Origin: Candidatus Endolissoclinum faulkneri L2
Lineage (GTDB): Bacteria; Pseudomonadota; Alphaproteobacteria; Thalassobaculales; Thalassobaculaceae
Length of the DNA: 64,000 bases
Assembly: GCF_000319385.1 (NCBI RefSeq)
Contig: NC_019566.1
Location: 1,007,266 to 1,071,265 of the forward strand
Direction of reading: 5' to 3'
The notes under the pieces are model-generated. The model was not told where the DNA came from. It worked only from the letters and a program-made list of their open reading frames with translations, and searched no databases. Shown in pieces: positions 11,301-59,458 of the stretch (within the stretch, counting starts at the first letter, position 1; every line of letters starts with the position of its first letter). Made by a program: the position numbers and the translations under genes.

Positions 11301-12407
11301 CATTTATGATCTAGTAGATATAACTCGATAGTACTATACTTATTGTTGCCAAAATTTTATATAAGGACTATACTATTCATTATCCATAGTATTTTTGTAA
11401 AAACCTAATAGCAATTCTAAGCTTAATCAACAGCCCATCCGTATGGAAAACAAGTTAGTTTATATAGAAATGCTTGATAAAAATTAAAAATTCTCATAAT
11501 TTATCAGGCAGCTCACCATAGTATTAATAATACATCGCAGCTAAATTAACATTGCTACCCTAGATAATAGTCGAATAATACCAAAAAAAAATTACGACAC
11601 AAAAACTTTATCGATTCTACATAAAAACACTAACAGTCTTGTATTTGTTTTTAAAAAGCACCAATGCTTATTTAAAATTAGCATTTAGTTTATTTATTAA
11701 TTTTTATTTTAAGTTATTGCTAGATTTTTTGTAAATTATTAAAATTGAATATTATACCTATTTATGTCTAAAAAATTTAATTTTTTTATTAAAATAATTT
11801 AACAATGAATGAAATTGCAATTGGCAAATTATTAGTACAATGCGTAATAAAATACAAACCTAGTTAATACAAAGAAACAATAAATATGCAAGAAAAATTT
11901 TGGTATTAAATACGAATTGATACGACCGTCAAAAAGTTCAACATAATTTTTTTTAAAATAAACTTATTGCATTATGCTCAAATAGTATATCTATAATCTT
12001 ATTATAGTAATCTAGATTTACTTAAATAAGATTTTTCTTAAATGATAACAGTATCATAATAAGCGGACTGTTTTGAATTTTGCATTGTGAAAAAGCTATT
12101 AATTAAATTGTCAGAGCAAATTAACTTTATGTTTCATGTAAATGCACTTAGGATAATCCTCATTATCGTCAAAAAAGTAGATATAAAAACTCAATAGTGT
12201 GCTATTAAATAGCATTATTGAGTGATGATTTTTCTAACTACATAGTAAATTATTTTTACATCTTAATATTGCTAATCAAAGATTATCCAAGTTTATTGGC
12301 TGTAGCTAACCATTTTAAGTTTAAAAATAGGCTAGGATCGGGTGCTAATAAAAATACTTTTTAATTAAAGTAACAAAGCATTATATAAAAAACCATAGGA
12401 AAATATA
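8390..12407. other. 4.0-kb non-coding desert
   Basis: The longest gene-free stretch in the window. Only AT-rich low-complexity chance frames occur (for example minus 9203-9394). There is an exact 9-bp inverted repeat with a one-base centre at 8467-8485, and a weaker hairpin around 12190-12224 just before the pseudogene. No tRNA, structured RNA or mobile element was recognised. Confidence 0.65.
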
Positions 12408-13301
12408 ATGGATGGCTATCCCATTGATATGACGATAATCCCTAATATAGAAGTTTTTTTGAGCCAGAAACCAATACAATAAGTTATGTAGTAAGTGACC
12501 CAGACTCGTTATCTTGCGCTGTGATTGACTATGTAATGGATATAAATTACGCGGTAGGTGAAATAAACTATTACCATGCAAATAAAATGATTGATTATAT
12601 TCGCAGCAATAGCTTAAAAACAGATTCGATTATTGGTACTAATATTCATGCTGAACACCTCTCAGGAGGAAGTTATATACAGAGCAATCTAGGAGGTAAA
12701 TTAGGAATCAGCGAAGAGATCAAAATCGTGCAGAATATTTTTGGTGTGTTATTTAACGAAGGAAGCGAATTCAAGAGGGACGATAGCTAATTTGATTATC
12801 TTTTTGGCGACGGTGATACTTATCACATAGGTAACATGACTGCATTTACTATACATACCCCCGGGCCATACGCCAACCTGTATGACATATGTTATAGGCA
12901 ACTCAGCCTTTATCGGAAATACCTTGTTTATGTCAAATAGCGGAAGCGCACGAACCGACTTTCCTGCCAGTGATTCCGGTAAATTATACGATTCAATCCA
13001 AAAGTTACTAAACTTACCAAATAATATGCGTCTATTTATGTGTCATGATTATGAACCAAATGGTCGAGCTTTTCAATGGGAAGCACTGTTAGTGTAGAAA
13101 AAGAAACTAATAGCCACGTAGGCAGAGGGAATATCTCGTAAAAATTTCATAGCAATGCGAGAAGATAATGACGCTAAACTAGAAATGCCACGTCTTATCA
13201 GACTTTCTTTACAGATAAACATGCGTGCTGGCCAAATGCAGCCTCCAGATAAAGAAGGCTATACTTTTTTAAAGGTACCGATGAATAGACTATTGAGATA
13301 A
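12408..13301 (+). pseudogene. Decayed MBL-fold persulfide dioxygenase-like (ETHE1/Blh-type) gene
   Basis: Piecing three frames together recovers a nearly complete protein of the MBL family related to bacterial persulfide (sulfur) dioxygenases. Recovered stretches include SYVVSDP, SGGSYIQSNLGGKLGISEEI, FDYLFGDGDTYHIGNM, TCMTYVIGNSAFIGNTLF, RLFMCHDYEPNGRAFQWE and the C-terminal INMRAGQMQPPDKEGYTFLKVPMNRLLR. Lesions seen: a one-base loss in the T-run at 12454-12460; an in-frame TAA at 12788-12790; a one-base gain in the C/G run at 12858-12867; and a TAG at 13095-13097 with a further frame change and its reversal between about 13090 and 13130. Metal-site motifs have also eroded: the expected HxHxDH is NIHAEH, and GDTLF is GNTLF. 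This is a clear pseudogene, not a sequencing slip at one site. Confidence 0.9.
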
Positions 13302-15161
13302 CAAAAAACAAGGAAAGCAAACTTTAATAGAATTACATAAATGATAAAAATAGCAAGTTTAATCAATTGATGATTTTTAGTGCTTATAATCTAGCTTTAA
13401 AAAATATTAAAGCATAAATCAGTGCAGGCATTATAAAATAATGTCATTATCGTTAATTTTTTAATTATAATAACTTTGCGATCTTGTGCAGATAAACCAA
13501 GGATTTTCTGATGATTCAAGTTAATTTTGGCTAATATTTATTGTTATCTATTTATAATGTACTCAAAAAGTATATTCAACGTTATCTTCCTAATATCAAC
13601 AATCATATCAATTATTGATATTAGGAGCGCAATCGTCTGAAGTAGCATCCAGTTATTGCTAAGTTTTTAACTCGATCGTCTTTAAAAGAAAAAGTTTATT
13701 ATGGTTAATAACATGAGTTTTTCTTCAATAGTCCCGTGATAGTTCATCAGATCTAAATTACCTTATAAGCTATTTCTTTATATTACACTAATTGTTACAA
13801 ATCTAGTAAATTTATCCTCGTAATAACATTTGTGTTTTTCTCTGCTGTATACTACAATTATTATGGTGATATAATATTCTATTTAAATTTTTAATTCTAA
13901 TTTTTTAAATTTATTTAAAATCCACCAAAGAAGTTATGGGTTGTTAATTTATCGTTAAACTAAACTAGTGTCTGACGTAGAATTTTTACGTGCAATCGTT
14001 AAGATTATACGCTTATGTTAGAATTATCTTTCTGAAATCATTAAAACTGGAATTAAGCATTTTCTTATTTTCCAGCTTGGAAGTAAAACTAAAACAACTG
14101 CATTTAACTCACACCAATCAGGTAAAAATTTAGAAAAATTTCTCTAGGAAATGCTGCCTATATGGTTAATAATTTTTTATTCATTCTCATTAAATATTAT
14201 ATGTTATAATGTATTAGTGTGGTAGATGTAAGCTTGTATCACCTAATATGCATTATTTATGTGATTTTAAATAGCCAGCAATCCGATGAATGGCATTATT
14301 CATACTATGAAAGTGATATAGAGTTTATTTAGCTAAAATAGTTGATTTCTATTTAATTAATTATTAAGACCTACACCAATTTGGTGGATAAGTATCAACT
14401 TATTAGTGTAAAGATTAATACTTTATTATTTCAATGCATAAACGTAAAATTGATATGCCATAACTTATTATAAATTAGTTACAGCAGATATTTATATTAT
14501 AAGGTTTTTTACAATTTATTTTGATTTAATAGCTCAACAGTTTAATCAATTATGGATATTTGTTTCATCACAAGCTTTTTTAAAAGGCCTTATAGATTAC
14601 AACATCAGGAATACTATCAAGCTAGTTGATAAACCAGCAATATGAAATTCTACGACAATCAGTCCTAAATAACTTTAAGCAAAGCATATCTAATCATTTC
14701 TATAAATTATATAGCGCTAGATTACCGCATGACTAAAATTTTAGTTTTATAGATAAAGACTTAAAATACTAGGTAATTGAAGGTCTAAAACCCATGTTAT
14801 TCATTTTTTCTTTTCCAACAAAGGAAAGCAATTTGCTAGTACTGAGAAACAAACTAAAGAAATCAATTTATTATCAAATTGATTTCTTTAGTTTGTTTCT
14901 CAGTACTAGCAGTGTTTATAGAAACCTTAAATTCTTTGCCAATACTGTATAAACATTAAATATATGATAAATTGAGGTTTAAAAGAATAGCTTTATGATG
15001 AATAAATTAACTAAATACCAATCGAATCGTCTATTATGTTAGTAATAGGCTATTTATATTTATGGCAAAAACATACTTTTATTAAAATTTAACTAGAATT
15101 AGTTCAGTTAGACAGTCAACGAAAACTGGGTATTGATCTACTAACTTGGAGATCACATTAA
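13302..15161. other. Non-coding region with a very long perfect hairpin
   Basis: About 1.9 kb between the pseudogene and purC. No coding signal was seen. It contains the 36-bp perfect inverted repeat at 14834-14911. A GGAG ribosome-binding site for purC lies at the right end. Confidence 0.65.
14834..14911. repeat. 36-bp perfect inverted repeat with 6-nt loop
   Basis: The left arm 14834-14869 is exactly complementary to the right arm 14876-14911; the loop is ATTATC. The outer part of the stem is comparatively GC-containing (GCTAGTACTGAG). There is no run of T after either arm, so it is not a standard intrinsic terminator. It lies about 250 bases before purC. Confidence 0.95.
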
Positions 15162-15947
15162 ATGTCTAAACGTTACAAGCTCTACGAAGGTAAAGCTAAA
15201 ATCATGTATGAAGGGCCAGAACCAGGCACGATCATTCAATACTTCAAAGACGATGCTACAGCTTTTAACAATCAAAAGCATGATCTAATTGCTGGAAAGG
15301 GTGTTATTAACAATCGCATTAGCGAATATTTGATGACAAAATTGACAGAGATTGGTGTGCCTAACCACTTCATTCGTCGACTTAATATGCGTGAACAGCT
15401 TATACATGAGGTAGAAATGCTTCCGCTTGAAGTTGCAGTACGAAACGTAGTTGCTGGTTCATTAGCAAAAAGATTTGGATTAGAAGAAAGTACTCAACTT
15501 CAGCGCTCTATCATTGAGTACTATTACAAATCAGATGAACTAGGTGATCCACTAATTTCTGAAGGACATATTAATTGTTTTGGTTGGGCTACTAATCAAG
15601 AGATAGACGATATGATTATTTTGTCTCTCCGAGTAAACGATTTTTTAGTTGGCTTGTTTCTTGGGGTTGGAATAAGACTGGTTGACTTTAAACTAGAATT
15701 TGGTCGTTGGCACAATAGTAATGAGGAAGTGCAGATCGTACTTGCTGATGAGATCAGTCCGGATAATTGCCGATTATGGGATATTAAAACCAACGAAAAA
15801 ATGGATAAGGATCGCTTTAGGCGTGATCTAGGTGGCGTTAAGGAAGCCTATCAGGAGGTAGCACGCCGTCTAGGAGTGCTAACGGAAATTAATAACATTG
15901 ATTTGAATAATCACAATAGCCTTTCAGTACAAGATGGATTAGCATAA
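15162..15947 (+). CDS. purC: SAICAR synthetase (phosphoribosylaminoimidazole-succinocarboxamide synthase)
   Basis: Ligates aspartate to CAIR with ATP in purine biosynthesis. The protein is 261 residues, close to the usual 240-260. It begins with the family start [17 protein letters not shown] (2-18). [26 protein letters not shown] (about 29-54), the substrate-site [17 protein letters not shown] (about 90-106) and the aspartate/ATP segment VDFKLEFGR (about 178-186) to [14 protein letters not shown] (about 196-209) are intact. The start is chosen at 15162, where GGAG lies about 8 bases upstream. In alphaproteobacteria purC is normally followed immediately by purS and purQ; here the same order is kept, but purS is 2.2 kb away. 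Confidence 0.96.
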
Positions 15948-16754
15948 TGCTAAATAATTTAATAATTATAGCTGATCAGTCTTTTTATTGAATTTTTTAA
16001 AAATTACTGCAACCAGATTTAGTTAATACTAATAAATTATAAAATGTTGTATACTAATTGAAATTTATACAGCAGAGATAATTAGCTACAAACTTCAACA
16101 ATAAGCATCATGTGATATCTAGATATCTTGCAGATTTGTAGCTAATCCAAGGGTAGAGTCTACTAAGTCTCTCATCAAGAAATAGCTAATTCGGATATTG
16201 ATATAATTCTATGGATATTCTTATGAAAGCAAACTGATTAAGTAGATGAATTTTAAAATGCAATGTTACTGCACTAAATGAGATAATCTGCATAAGCAAT
16301 TTACATTTTTCAAGTTCTATGTTGGCATTTTTAACGATGATATGCAGATAAATCTCGAAAAAGTAAACTACTCTGTTAGAAATACTTTTGGTAAGAAATG
16401 TATTTAGTATACGTTATTTGAATAAATAACAGCATTAAAATTTCAAAAAAAGCAATATAATCAATTTAAAATATTTTCAATCTTTAAGCGCTTAATTATT
16501 TTATCAATCTTCTTGCTGATTTTTATTATTACTTAATACAGTAGGCAAAGTCACTTTACTTGACAATGCATTGCTGTAACCACACTGCTGCATCAAAATA
16601 ATTTATCATTATTGATCTTAAGAATAATTGAGAGTACTTCTTTAGCATTGTACCAATTGCAATTAATAAACCTAACGATACAAAACAATTATGCGCAAAT
16701 TAATTTGCTTTAATGTCATTCCATGGCATTGAAGTAGCTACCATTGAAATAATA

Positions 16755-16791
16755 TACCTCCCTAACGGATAATATTTATCCTTGTGAGGTA
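16755..16791. repeat. Two-tier hairpin
   Basis: The outer stem TACCTC/GAGGTA and inner stem GGATAA/TTATCC are separated by a small asymmetric internal loop and closed by a TAT loop. It could form in RNA of either strand. There is no T-run after it, and it is not recognised as a known RNA family. Confidence 0.5.
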
Positions 16792-17715
16792 GATATTACT
16801 GATAGCATAAAAAAACCTAATTATTATTAGTTTAGCAGTTATGCAATCACTTAAATATTATTGTAAAAAACCTTCGATTTAGTCGATTGGTGATTTATTA
16901 GCGATTATAATTAGTATTGGAGATACTAATTATAACAAAGGATATGGTTAATTTTCATATTAAAACTTAATTTGGAAATGTTAATAATTTGGAACCTTTA
17001 TGATCTATTCTACGATAAAAAACTAATTCTAGAAAAAAATAAATCGCCGATAGGTGGTATTTTATTTATAATTACAGTAGGTTATCGAGTGATATAATTA
17101 AGTAGCATTAACAATATGTCGGATAGTTATTTTTTTATTCCATTTTATCCACTGCTAAAATTGCCTTATGTTAAAACAGCGCGCTGATATTTCTATTAAT
17201 TGATCACTAATCAACCGATATATGATATGATTGACGTTAAGCCCACAAACGGTAGATTTTATACAAAAAAATTAAGCGGTTCCACACAATTAGTATAGTT
17301 AATTATAATTTTATATTAAAACATAAGATTGCTGTATAATCATTAAAAACTTAAGATTTTATTCTATGAGTAAATATATAATAAAAATAAATTTTTACCT
17401 TTCAAAGCCGATAGGTATTGAAGCAATAACTATAAAACTAATATTCAATAGACTGGTAAAAAATTGCTATGATCCATAAAAAAGTTTATAAGTAATAAAC
17501 TATACTAACAAATATTAAGTATGTTAGCAAAAATCAAGTTTAAGCTTCAAAATACTTGCTACCTTGGCATAAAAAATACTTAATATGCTTAAGGAAAATA
17601 CATTCATAAATCTATACTACAACACATATAGATTACTAATTAAAATATTTTTAAATTTATCTACACAACGGTAGTTAAATATTAATAAGAAAAGTTCTAT
17701 AATTGCTACATATTC

Positions 17716-17765
17716 CATTTTAACACAATAATATATAATTCTTTATATATTATTGTGTTAAAATG
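17716..17765. repeat. 22-bp perfect inverted repeat with 6-nt loop
   Basis: The left arm 17716-17737 is exactly complementary to 17744-17765; the loop is ATTCTT. The stem is very AT-rich, with CATTTTAACACAATA at its base. It lies about 360 bases before purS. Confidence 0.92.
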
Positions 17766-18059
17766 AGCGAAAGATATAATTTTCTCGCAAGGAAAACCAA
17801 AAAAATCTTATTTCTACCTACTAAATTAAAAATAAACTATCTTCATTATTATACTCTAGTATAAATTAACTTTCCTAATCGGCAATGATACGTTTACATT
17901 TTGTTTAAACAAAAGATTTCAGTTATTTTCTTTGCAAATTTCCACATCAACGGCTGCATTAGATTATTGTCATGATAATTTCACGAATTTACTTAAGTTA
18001 GCTATAACAGCATTAACAAACTTATTTTGTAAAAAAATAAACTTAATTATACGATTAAT

Positions 18060-18088
18060 TTGACTAAAAAGTAGTAGAATTTTATCGT
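18060..18088 (+). promoter_or_regulatory. Possible purS promoter
   Basis: TTGACT at 18060-18065, a 17-base spacer, then TATCGT at 18083-18088, about 40 bases before the purS ATG. This is a reasonable sigma-70 layout, and a separate promoter is expected because purS is so far from purC. AT-rich DNA yields such matches by chance. Confidence 0.3.
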
Positions 18089-18128
18089 AATAATAAAAAT
18101 TACTACACTAAATAATTTGGATAATATT

Positions 18129-18371
18129 ATGAAGGTTACTATTTATCTCAAACTTAAGCTAGAAGTACTTGATCCACAAGGAAAAGTAATTGCTCGTGCC
18201 CTTTCCGATTTGGGATTTGTTGGTATCAACGAAGTTCGTCAAGGAAAAATAATTGAAATTGATCTTGACGAAACGGATTCCGTTAAAGCTTTATCCTATA
18301 CAAAAAACATGTGCGAACGTCTATTAGCAAATACGATTATCGAAAATTATAGTGTTAGCATCGACGACTAA
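18129..18371 (+). CDS. purS: Phosphoribosylformylglycinamidine synthase subunit PurS
   Basis: Small structural subunit that bridges PurL and the glutaminase PurQ in FGAM synthase, the fourth purine step. The preferred start is the ATG at 18129, giving 80 residues beginning MKVTIYLKLKLEVLDPQGK, which matches the family; the frame is open 4 codons further upstream. The diagnostic segments DPQGKVIARALSDLGFVGINEVRQGKIIEIDL and CERLLANTIIENYSV are present. It lies between purC and purQ in conserved order, but with 2.2 kb before and 1.6 kb after. Confidence 0.94.
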   Translation: MKVTIYLKLKLEVLDPQGKVIARALSDLGFVGINEVRQGKIIEIDLDETDSVKALSYTKNMCERLLANTIIENYSVSIDD

Positions 18372-19998
18372 TCCAATTAGTACTTTTCTTTACTTATTAA
18401 AGTTTAACTAATGATGTATGTCACATTAGATGGCTTATATTAATTATCGATTAACATATCGAATATTTCATTGATTAGTATAAATAAAGCGCTAATAAAT
18501 ACCCTCTCTTAAATAGAGATCAACTAATAATTACCAAGAACAATAGATAATATTTTGCTTAAAAATTAAGCAACCGCAATTTATCACTTAATCTTGATTG
18601 CACAGCTGCAGTTGTTAATATAGCACATCTAGTTTTACCAGATGGATTATTGTACGATCCACAATATATTATATTAAAACAGATTAAGTTCACCGTTTGA
18701 GATATAAAATACTTATTTAATGATTTTTTAAAAGTGCTGATGCAGAAATACAAATATACTTTAAATACTTAATATTTTAGTTTAATGCGCAACTATATTA
18801 CAAAGCAATAGAAGCCGCAAAAACTAGTGAATATATTGTACAATACTCGCACAATTTAATTATTTAACATAAGACAACCCCACAGCACATTTATTTTTAG
18901 ATTAATAATTAGTATCCGACTATTGATTACAACTAACAGCTAAAGTAAAATCAATATAAATTGATTAGAAAAATAAAAAGCAAAATGAATAATATCCTGA
19001 ATAAAATATAGTTAAATTATTTTGCTAAAATTGTATACAAGCATTAGACATTAAATATTGAAACTAATCTCTATGCTTCCAAACGCAATACTATTAAATC
19101 CTAGATTAGATACATTAAAAATTATTGCTTAAGGAATTTTCTTTAAAAAATAAACTAATAAATTATTACGATCCTATGGTGTGGTATTATCTGACAAGGT
19201 AGTTTTGTAATAAGAGTAACATCATCGATTAATAAATCGAAAACAATACAAAAATTCATGACTATTTAATATCATTATTAATTACAAAAAGCGCAATTGT
19301 CAATTTTCTAGTTATTATATCGATTAAATCAGCTAATCATATATATAAAATAATTAATCGCGCAATTATATAGATTGAGTTTTTCTATGTTTTGTAGGCC
19401 AATGCTCTATGTTAATCAAAGGAATAAATTACATTTACTATATTCTATTAATTAGGCAAGTATACTAGTTTAGCTCAAATTACAAATAGCATTTCTTAAT
19501 GCTAATTATAAATATAACGACGATACTTTGAACGAAAATTAATCGAATTAGTACAAGTGAGATATTAAACAATATATTAGCTGCTAATGCAGAGAAGCAC
19601 ATTATTATTTACATATTTCTTATATAAATGCATAATTTTTTATGCTAAATTTAAGTGATAAAATTTTTTATAGATGAAAAATCAATATTTAAGTTATGTG
19701 ATTAATGATAATTGTTAACATTTAAATAATGTATAGAATACATCTTAGTTAGATGTGAGTTCAATTAATTAATGCTTCACTAAGCATCTTAGTTAAATAA
19801 ATTTTTTAAAATCGAGAGCAATCTTGACATCTAAACTAATATCATCAAATGAATTTTTATTTAGTAATTTATCTATTAAAATATTAATATCGATCACTTA
19901 CTAAGCTATACTATTTTTAACTTGTTCAATTATAAGAATTATGCGATCACTTATCCGCTGAATATTCCAATAATTGGATGTTTCCCGGAGAGCAAAAA
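18372..19998. other. Expanded purS-purQ gap
   Basis: 1.6 kb of AT-rich DNA separating two subunits of the same enzyme. A short coding-like island at about 18563-18701 on the plus strand (peptide containing LDCTAAVVNIAHLVLPDG) is the only stretch that does not look random; I do not recognise it. Confidence 0.6.
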
Positions 19999-20691
19999 AT
20001 GAAAACGGCGATTGTTCTATTTCCCGGATCTAACCGAGATCGGGATATGTCTATAGCCATACGCCAATCTTTCGGTAATGACCCACTCTTTATTTGGCAT
20101 AAAGAAACCGAAATTCCCAAAGTAGATTTAATTATTATTCCAGGCGGGTTTTCTTATGGAGATTACCTACGCTCCGGTGCAATCAGCGCACTATCACCTG
20201 TAATGCGTACGGTTGAGAAACAAGCCAGAAATGGTGTACCAGTGTTAGGAGTTTGTAACGGCTTCCAGATTTTAACCGAAGCTAGAATATTACCAGGCGT
20301 TCTTATGCGTAATATTACATTAAAGTTTGTGTGTAAAACAATCAGTTTGAAGGTAGAAAACTCTTCTAGTATATTCAGCAATCGCTATAGTCGGGGACAA
20401 ATTCTTTCACTACCCGTTGCACATAACGATGGTAATTATTTTGCTGACGATGACACACTTAATAGGATAGAGGATAATGACCAGGTAGCTTTTCGCTATG
20501 TTACAAATGAGAATGGTTTGCTTGGAAACCCAAACGGATCTATGCGTGATATCGCTGGCGTTTATAACGAAAATAAGACAGTTTTGGGTTTAATGCCTCA
20601 TCCTGAGAATGCTATTTACTCTTTTTTCGGAAGAGCGGATGGTAGAGATTTTTTTGATAATTTAATAAAATCATTGTATTTAATATCTTGA
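19999..20691 (+). CDS. purQ: Phosphoribosylformylglycinamidine synthase subunit PurQ (glutaminase)
   Basis: Class I glutamine amidotransferase that supplies ammonia to PurL in FGAM synthesis. The ATG at 19999 is chosen because GGAGAG lies about 8 bases upstream and the protein then begins [16 protein letters not shown], the normal start; it is 230 residues. The nucleophile Cys86 sits in GVCNGFQ, the oxyanion and glycine-rich loop is [17 protein letters not shown] (about 47-63), and the His201/Glu203 pair is in MPHPENA. purL, which usually follows, is not in the 2.7 kb downstream and must be elsewhere if the pathway is complete. Confidence 0.96.
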
Positions 20692-50332: not shown

Positions 50333-51931
50333 GCAATGTATCTATGAAAGAATTTACTATTCACAACTTTTTTGTAAAATGTTGAATAGCTTTTTGTGGA
50401 AAGATTATTTTGATCGACTGCTGACAAAGCAATACGAAGTTGTATATGAATTTATAATTTTTGACGATCTAGCTTAAATGTTATTCTAAGTTAAAGTTTG
50501 TTTTGAAAATTAAAGAAATTTGTTGCTTGTTAATAATGCGTGTAAAAATTAATTTAATATTAATTATTTTGCGTAGTATTGCAGTCTAAAAAAATTAAGG
50601 TATCTACAATACATGAGCTTAACGCCTCATTGCTTTAAAGACAAATTAATACGATAAAAATATCGCTAGCAACTGAACCTCAGAAAATCAATTTATACAG
50701 CCTATTCATCTACAAAACAAAAATCGCTTTCTCTTAGTTATTAAGAGAAGTTTAATTAACTAAAAGATTAGCAGATATTCAATAATTGATAAATTATGTG
50801 TTTTAACGTTTGTTTTTCTGTAATAAAAACAAAAGAAAGAATGCGTTTTGCTGAGCAAAATTAGATTTTTTTATATAACCCGCTGATTAGTTTATTATGA
50901 TGAAATTCATATTTACACGATTCGTATTGTAATGAAAAAGATTATCAGTAAACTATCGAAGGTATTTGCGAACATATCTTTTATAATTGCTTATGCGGAC
51001 GAAATTTAAGTATTACTATATTTAGAATAATATATTTGTTCAAAACAATAGCACAAATAAAACTATATGTAAATTAAGCATAACTACTCTTTTTTTTAAA
51101 AGATAAATTGTGAATTTTCATATTCATACTAATGATTATTAGTTTTCCTAAGAATTTTAACAAACTAATGCAACAATTATATAACTTGATTGCTTTTACA
51201 CAACTAATCAATCAATTAACTTAAAATAGCTTAAGAAATATTTATCGTCATACTAACTAACAAAATAAAATGCAAATATTTTTAAAACTACTAATCTCTG
51301 ATTGGAAAATCAATAAAACACTTGAGCTATTCAATATTCGACTCGTGCCTAAAATGAAATGATAACACCAAAATTAACCTTGATAATTTGCAGGCCTTAA
51401 TTTTACAAAAAGCTATAGATATTCCTTAATATTAAAAATAAAATATTCTTAATATTAGCAAGTAAAAAAATTTTATTTTTAATATTATTGCATGAATTAA
51501 AAACACAAATATAATAAAGTTTTTGGTAATATTATTATAGTTTGCAATGCGCGGAAAAGCTAAATTACTTAATTAGCATAAACAATCTATACTGGACAAT
51601 AAAAGTTAATAAATTTTCTAAGCAAAATTGCACAAAATTCCTAGATAAAATAATAGATTTACCTATACGCCCATAGCCAGTCAATTAATTTTTCAGTAAA
51701 AATTTATATCATGACTAATGAGCAGTACGCTAACACAGCCCTTCATTTTCTAAGCATAATAATAGACTAGGTGTACGTAACACAATTCTTTTTGCATAAA
51801 AACTAACTGCTGATTTTTGATTAACTGCAGGTATTTTCAAGCATAACAGATTTATCTATTTGAATAGGAAACATCTTAAGCTTTAAGATACATCTTAAGA
51901 CAAACAGCGCACAAATTACATTACCAAAATA
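50333..51931. other. 1.6-kb non-coding region
   Basis: AT-rich DNA between convergent carbonic anhydrase and pyrF genes. No coding sequence, tRNA or clear terminator was recognised. Confidence 0.65.
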
Positions 51932-58167: not shown

Positions 58168-59458
58168 TTTTAAATTACTAATCTAAAACCAAATCAATCT
58201 CCAGATTATTATAATCTGTCTTTCCTCCAACATACAATACTTTTTTCTCGTTCGAGCTGAATTACTTTTTAGTAAGTTAAATGTTTAATTAAGCATCCTA
58301 TAGCAGAGATTTAATAATTTTTAAAAGATCATCGCTTTCTAATCTAGAATATTACATAACGTCAGACTCTTTATTCAATAATTAGCTATAGTACTTTTTT
58401 AGGAGATAATATTTTCCATTAAAATAACTCATATATAATATCTTTATGAGAAATAGGAAGATTTCTAGATGACTTTGAATAAATTTTTAGTGGGGTATGA
58501 ATATAAAAACGCTGTAAAATAAATCATAATTTTTAGTAAAAATAGTGCTCGTTACATCACTTCCACTTACAAATTATATTAGGAAATAATTTTATATATA
58601 TAAAAATAATACAAAACACTACTCTTTAGTTTGTATGAAATGATAAATGAAGATTTGTGATCTATTTGATATTTAGAATAACGTTTTTATTAATTTATTT
58701 ATAAAAATTAAATTTAATTCATAAATTAATTGTATATTTTATTGTTTCTAGATTGACAATATTGTTATAATTTTACGCTTATTTTGCAAAAAGCTGCATA
58801 AAGTGGATCTAGCAAATACAGCTCATCTATAAATTAAACATTAAGATCGTAATTTTTTATCTAAAAAACAATAGTAAACAAAAAAGCATTTACTATAATT
58901 ACTTTCAAAGAAATAGCACCTGAGCTTTTTTATTTTGATTTTAAAATAACCATGAAATAAATTGAGCAAGCTTTGTTATTGGCCCTTTTCAGAAGAAAAG
59001 TTTGCTAAATACACAATCTACAATTTTATTTATTTCTATAATTATCGACAACTTTATGTGGGGAAAATTTACAATATTTTTGGCCGCAATCAGATAAATT
59101 ACATAATACTAAAATCTCTAAATTTGAAGGGAATAACAATAACCGTACAAATTAACTCTGGTTATTGATTTAAACTTATTGCTTATTAAATTTTGGACGG
59201 GATTTTGCATAGTGACTGATTAAAACTTTAATCAGTCACTATGCAAAATAATTAAACGAAAGCCATTATATATCATTATGCTTGTTTAATCAATCAATTT
59301 AATGCCTCTAAGAGGTTATTCGCCCACTATAGAATCCTTTATCATAATAATTCATGACGGTAATCTGATTTATTGTTCAATAAGCTAAGCTTAGAAAGCT
59401 TATAGCTAATTACTTTGCAAGTAAAGACTACACACCTAATAAATTTAAGGTATTTGTT
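58168..59458. other. 1.3-kb non-coding region with a long hairpin
   Basis: AT-rich. A 68-codon frame (58962-59168) has random composition. Contains the 23-bp inverted repeat at 59202-59249, about 210 bases before the pcm-like gene. Confidence 0.65.
59202..59249. repeat. 23-bp perfect inverted repeat with 2-nt centre
   Basis: Arms 59202-59224 and 59227-59249 are exactly complementary around AC. The arm includes TTTTGCATAGTGACTGATT. On the plus strand the right arm ends GCAAAAT with no T-run; read on the minus strand it ends with TTTTG-like bases only inside the stem, so it is not a clean terminator. Confidence 0.93.

Follow-up and report, generated by a model that had tools for sequence, protein, structure and literature searches.

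The 64-kb window, by which we mean the whole stretch of DNA analysed, belongs to the genome of Candidatus Endolissoclinum faulkneri L2, a tunicate symbiont with ~43% non-coding DNA and a GC content of 0.342 in the sampled sequence; Table 4 of PMC5698493 lists the strain with 1.48 Mbp, 34.1% GC and 57.2% coding DNA. By PurC, the closest named relative was Candidatus Endolissoclinum faulkneri L5 (NZ_CP006745, 89% identical), and identity between the two strains in non-coding DNA was ~0.65–0.7. The accessible text of PMC3851785 describes L2 and L5 as syntenic and their intergenic DNA as strongly degraded and probably formerly coding. In the window, purC, purS (18117–18371, with a TTG start) and purQ are scattered across 5.5 kb (15162–20691) with ORF-poor gaps between them, their homologues being more tightly spaced at a Thalassobaculum litoreum locus (L022). 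The region at 12311–14088 contains no long ORF yet shares 74% nucleotide identity with L5, which exceeds the expectation for a neutral spacer. An inverted repeat lies in ORF-poor DNA upstream of purC, with the following layout:

14834..14869, + strand: left arm (36 nt) of a perfect inverted repeat, probably the one newly written
14870..14875, + strand: loop ATTATC, 6 nt
14876..14911, + strand: right arm (36 nt) of the same repeat, probably older and used as the template
15162..15947, + strand: purC (SAICAR synthase), an intact gene beginning 250 bp beyond the stem

The two 36-nt arms are 100% complementary and 6 nt apart, as described in the first-pass annotation of this DNA, and form the longest inverted repeat of the window. 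The 36-bp stem is far outside chance expectation: the longest stems were 11–13 bp in five second-order Markov controls of the window and 14 bp in five local dinucleotide shuffles. The annotation had also noted an absence of terminator features and of flanking coding sequence. No terminator-like site was found at 14300–15300, the stem itself ending without a T-run tail, and the surroundings are poor in ORFs, with the purC start 250 bp on. Rfam families and tRNAs gave no match anywhere in the window. A search of the whole genome (1,481,191 bp, both strands) brought up no copies of the stem, which strongly matched only itself, the next-best match being 26 nt long at 88% identity (E 0.006). When the locus was compared between strains, the purC leader of L5 was alignable at the focal site with an interval of equal length (net change 0) and the stem was absent, so that a simple insertion is disfavoured. 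The best inverted-repeat score at the L5 site was 6, equal to background, and no quasipalindrome rose above background there.

The analysis was extended to perfect stems 16 bp or longer whose loops did not exceed 20 nt, using ORFs of at least 110 codons as a proxy for coding sequence, in 20 systematic 20-kb stretches of L2 (400 kb) and 16 stretches of L5 (320 kb). The L2 sample contained 30 such stems (27 outside the coding proxy) and the L5 sample 42 (40 outside), with 0 in the shuffles of either, giving a density of ~7–13 per 100 kb in the two strains. Stems were 10- to 20-fold scarcer in the coding proxy (1.4 and 1.2 per 100 kb, against 14.6 and 27 in non-coding DNA), coding DNA being also less AT-rich. 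A free-living relative (G004) had 4 stems in 360 kb, with 2 in its ~13 kb of non-coding proxy, so that a higher rate in the symbionts than in free-living relatives is not evident per non-coding base. Perfect stems with at least 16 matched pairs numbered 0 in 150 kb of E. coli K-12 and, among small alphaproteobacterial controls covering just 40, 31 and 100 kb (stretches from G020 and G028 were left out), 1 in G023 (40 kb), 0 in G024 (31 kb) and 0 in G026 (100 kb). Further hairpins were located in the window itself, none with an assigned strand:

17716..17765, unstranded: perfect hairpin, 23-bp arms, 4-nt loop
23218..23264, unstranded: perfect hairpin, 23-bp arms, 1-nt loop
30376..30407, unstranded: perfect hairpin, 16-bp arms, loopless
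51427..51487, unstranded: hairpin with 18 perfect outer pairs and a 25-nt interior (25-bp arms, 92%)
59202..59249, unstranded: perfect hairpin, 23-bp arms, 2-nt loop; the left arm aligns to L5, the right arm does not

Together, the L2 samples, the window and the L5 samples provided 87 stems with a mean arm GC of 0.22. Comparison of the 87 arms gave just three weak pairs (10–15 nt) and no families. The focal hairpin belongs to a large set of hairpins in decaying non-coding DNA, each unique in sequence and specific to its strain. Hairpins of Endolissoclinum were not named in a literature search confined to titles and abstract openings, most subscription papers being beyond reach, and the text of PMC3851785 gave 0 matches to “palindrom”, “hairpin” and “inverted repeat”.

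Several individual stems outside the window are also worth describing. A perfect 37-bp stem with a loop of 7 in L5 (L134:12616, ~G001:C1:1012316) exceeds the focal stem in length and could not be aligned to a sister site within the stretches compared. Another L5 stem, perfect over 19 bp (L131:11021), lies within a 762-codon reading frame that shows a 6-base in-frame shortening relative to L2 (L111). In one orthologous region, different strain-specific stems occur ~100 bp apart in L5 (L132:14799, 27 bp) and in L2 (L112:16714, 22 bp), which suggests local recurrence.

The uniqueness of the stem bears on the mobile-element remnant listed in the first-pass annotation. Long terminal inverted repeats can resemble such a stem, but an origin from a mobile element or a MITE- or REP-like repeat is extremely improbable, as the stem is single copy in a complete genome, the 87 arms fall into no families, the locus carries no net insertion relative to L5, and the authors of PMC3851785, in its accessible text, report no evidence of such elements in L2 or L5. 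Preservation by selection for an RNA role in the purC leader (as an attenuator, processing site or stabilizer) would accord with the position 250 bp upstream of purC and with a very stable predicted RNA fold (–57.4 kcal/mol, z –14.3). However, the orthologous place in L5 lacks the stem although purC is intact there, neither an Rfam match nor a terminator tail was found at the stem, and similar stems occur in unrelated non-coding DNA of both genomes, with a T tract on either side in only 3 of 87, making a leader element very unlikely. The functional RNA hairpin considered in the first-pass annotation is thus left unsupported by the absence of the stem from L5; the stem probably has no function of its own, and no functional element is indicated.

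A stem that is perfect, unique and strain-specific could also be produced by an assembly or library artefact, such as a fold-back chimera or a mis-joined contig. Against this, both flanks are collinear with L5 over an equal length, which a fold-back join would not give, and the class is present in both genomes, the L5 assembly having been built from that strain's own Illumina data, with read mapping giving 96 variant sites, according to the accessible text of PMC3851785. The scarcity of stems in the coding proxy likewise fits selection on real mutations, with the proviso that coding DNA is also less AT-rich. We therefore regard an artefact as unlikely, and a replication template switch as the better account of the stem.

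Sister sites were compared for the whole set, in which 54 of the 87 stems could be aligned to the other strain and 33 had no usable alignment (32 without a match and one at an edge). Among the 46 aligned stems with a flank identity of at least 0.5, no sister site kept a perfect stem of at least 13 bp (0/46), two reaching a score of 12 or 13. The inverted-repeat potential of the sister sites was above the local background (mean 7.24 vs 6.24, n = 46 vs 276, p = 5e-5); the background was drawn first from random positions and then locally, the local one shrinking the difference but preserving it. This slight excess is what imperfect precursors (quasipalindromic seeds) or decayed relics would leave. 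As no stems are common to the two strains, stem lifetimes must be shorter than the time since the L2–L5 split, a result that does not discriminate between correction and fast deletion.

The proportion of perfect to near-perfect stems was then considered for stems with 18 or more matched pairs. L2 (samples and window) had 19 perfect stems, none with one mismatch, three with two and two with three, and L5 had 28, 4, 2 and 1, respectively, giving pooled values of 47 perfect, 4 one-mismatch, 5 two-mismatch and 3 three-mismatch stems. Simulated constant birth with neutral decay yielded 22–66% perfect and 25–34% one-mismatch stems for ages up to 0.02–0.2 substitutions per site, and this model was rejected on the observed perfect to one-mismatch ratio of 47:4. 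The excess of perfect stems over the neutral simulation implies that near-perfect stems do not last, being either corrected until perfect or lost as a whole. In bacteria, imperfect inverted repeats have been described as scarcer than perfect ones and as seeming to mutate toward perfection (van Noort 2003, as cited in PMC6060812). For stems in coding regions, pairing was also possible in the sister strain for 142 of 199 stem pairs (13 loci, hand-picked from 16 rows after dropping two extra frames of L103:13212 and L119:3599, a match to a distant paralogue); this is about what divergence alone predicts, and coding stems were therefore not used as evidence for correction.

The stems could also owe their perfection purely to youth, having arisen by template switching but with frequent birth and fast deletion in place of ongoing correction. 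Palindromes are known deletion hotspots, and retention of the stem at 0 of 46 sister sites agrees with rapid turnover. Even at the youngest simulated age (T 0.02), however, ~25% of stems would carry one mismatch, against 4 of 59 seen (0–3 mismatches), so that removal much faster than mutation would be required; we hold this explanation to be rather unlikely.

Under a template switch one arm would be the template and the other the copy. At the focal site, the right arm was ~24/36 identical to L5, roughly background identity, and the left arm 17/36 (MAFFT alignment, hand counts); right and left arm identities were 0.64 and 0.58 in four of five other scoring schemes and 0.75 and 0.61 in the fifth. 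Simulation densities were 54–56 for an old right arm with a new left arm, 11–37 for symmetric ancestry, 8–17 for an old left arm and ~35 for neither arm being old, favouring an old right arm ~1.5- to 5-fold over symmetric ancestry and ~1.6-fold over neither being old. On this alignment evidence the left arm was probably newly written from an older right arm, a polarity that is weakly resolved. Genome-wide, arm polarity gave p values of 0.001–0.012 in a first run and of 0.03–0.24 with a stricter aligner, L2 and L5 being strongly diverged. In the 44 of 54 aligned stems used for comparison with simulations (flank identity of at least 0.55), the observed mean arm difference of 0.13 fell between the values of symmetric (0.11) and template-switch (0.16–0.17) models, and sister pairing (0.63) was higher than in either. 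Individual stems gave clearer contrasts: the arms of L108:9102 were 19/23 and 12/23 identical to L5, with one arm keeping 18 consecutive L5 bases, and the right arm of L123:3296 adjoins a fully conserved stretch, the edge of which is copied by the left arm. This conserved stretch resembles a tRNA gene. A further case is the window hairpin at 59202, where the left arm alone aligns to L5. No replication arm could be read clearly from the GC skew of the samples.

Template switching is expected to be held in check by mismatch repair, by fork repair that depends on RecA, and by single-strand exonucleases, such as ExoI and ExoVII in E. coli. Profile searches for xseA, recA and mutL gave no match in L2 or L5 and found all three in 7/7 other genomes searched, and mutS, present in the same 7/7 proportion, had no intact match in either strain. 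A mutS remnant with four stops (one TAG, three TAA) was detected in L2 at G000:C1:1004828-1004968 (–) (E 6.5e-5), and none in L5; it lies ~2.3 kb before the start of the window and is the sole trace of mutS in L2. By contrast with these losses, recJ and polA are retained. ExoI was not found in any of nine genomes and is therefore not a symbiont-specific loss, and the SbcC and SbcD profiles were uninformative, scoring below cut-off in L2, L5 and every other genome searched. The loss of recA and the absence of mutSLH are also stated for L2 and L5 in the accessible text of PMC3851785.

From these observations we infer that the focal stem is, with good probability, the product of a replication template switch (quasipalindrome correction) fixed by drift, and not an element. 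A template-switch product had been one of the options in the first-pass annotation, and it is the best supported of them, the stem being strain-specific and unique, the L5 interval equal in length, and perfect stems far outnumbering near-perfect ones genome-wide. In the proposed sequence of events, the replication fork would pause and the nascent strand come off the template where a short imperfect inverted repeat occurs, the nascent 3' end pairing with a short complement on its own new strand or on the opposite parental strand. The polymerase would copy ~36 nt there before returning to the original template, so that one arm, more likely the left, would be overwritten by the reverse complement of its partner, with no net insertion. 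The change would have landed in non-coding DNA, where drift could fix it. The same process would make and perfect hairpins across the genomes of both strains, near-perfect stems being either restored to perfect or quickly lost, and its rate may be increased by the absence of mismatch repair, of RecA and of exonuclease VII.

This type of mutation is already known, and what stands out here is how dense the class is in both strains, together with the near absence of one-mismatch stems. Quasipalindrome correction and template-switch mutation have been described in bacteria (van Noort 2003, via PMC6060812) and followed with E. coli reporters (PMC7202029). As far as these sources could be consulted, the bacterial cases resemble the present one in having inverted repeats with short spacers, perfect repeats in excess of imperfect ones, and intra- or intermolecular strand switching as the explanation. 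They differ in that the stems described here reach 36–37 bp at ~7–13 per 100 kb, E. coli K-12 having 0 in 150 kb. De novo hairpins of RNA genes (Monttinen and Loytynoja 2022, PMC8794818, accessible part) are similar in that a single event writes a perfect stem by copying one arm, although ancestors were reconstructed there from close relatives, whereas one strongly diverged relative alone was available here. Nematomorpha mitochondria (PMC6649704, accessible part) likewise combine many perfect stems with a small genome, template switching being one offered cause; their stems, however, lie within coding genes and have arms that change in concert, whereas the symbiont stems are nearly all non-coding.

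Taken alone, the focal locus is ordinary, a neutral mutation product and not a regulator. A broader proposal, which we put forward tentatively and consider somewhat doubtful, is that, once MutS/MutL, RecA and exonuclease VII were gone, template switching may have become a dominant mutation mode of dying DNA in this symbiont lineage. Hairpins would arise, stay perfect through repeated self-templating and finally vanish, with the result that decaying genes would go through a hairpin-rich stage before deletion. Two syntenic, repair-poor sister genomes with ~43% unconstrained DNA offer a natural record of template-switch mutation under little selection. Should the missing repair genes be responsible, hairpin density in a degraded genome would mark which repair step went, and could shed light on the way non-coding DNA is altered and eliminated as genomes shrink.
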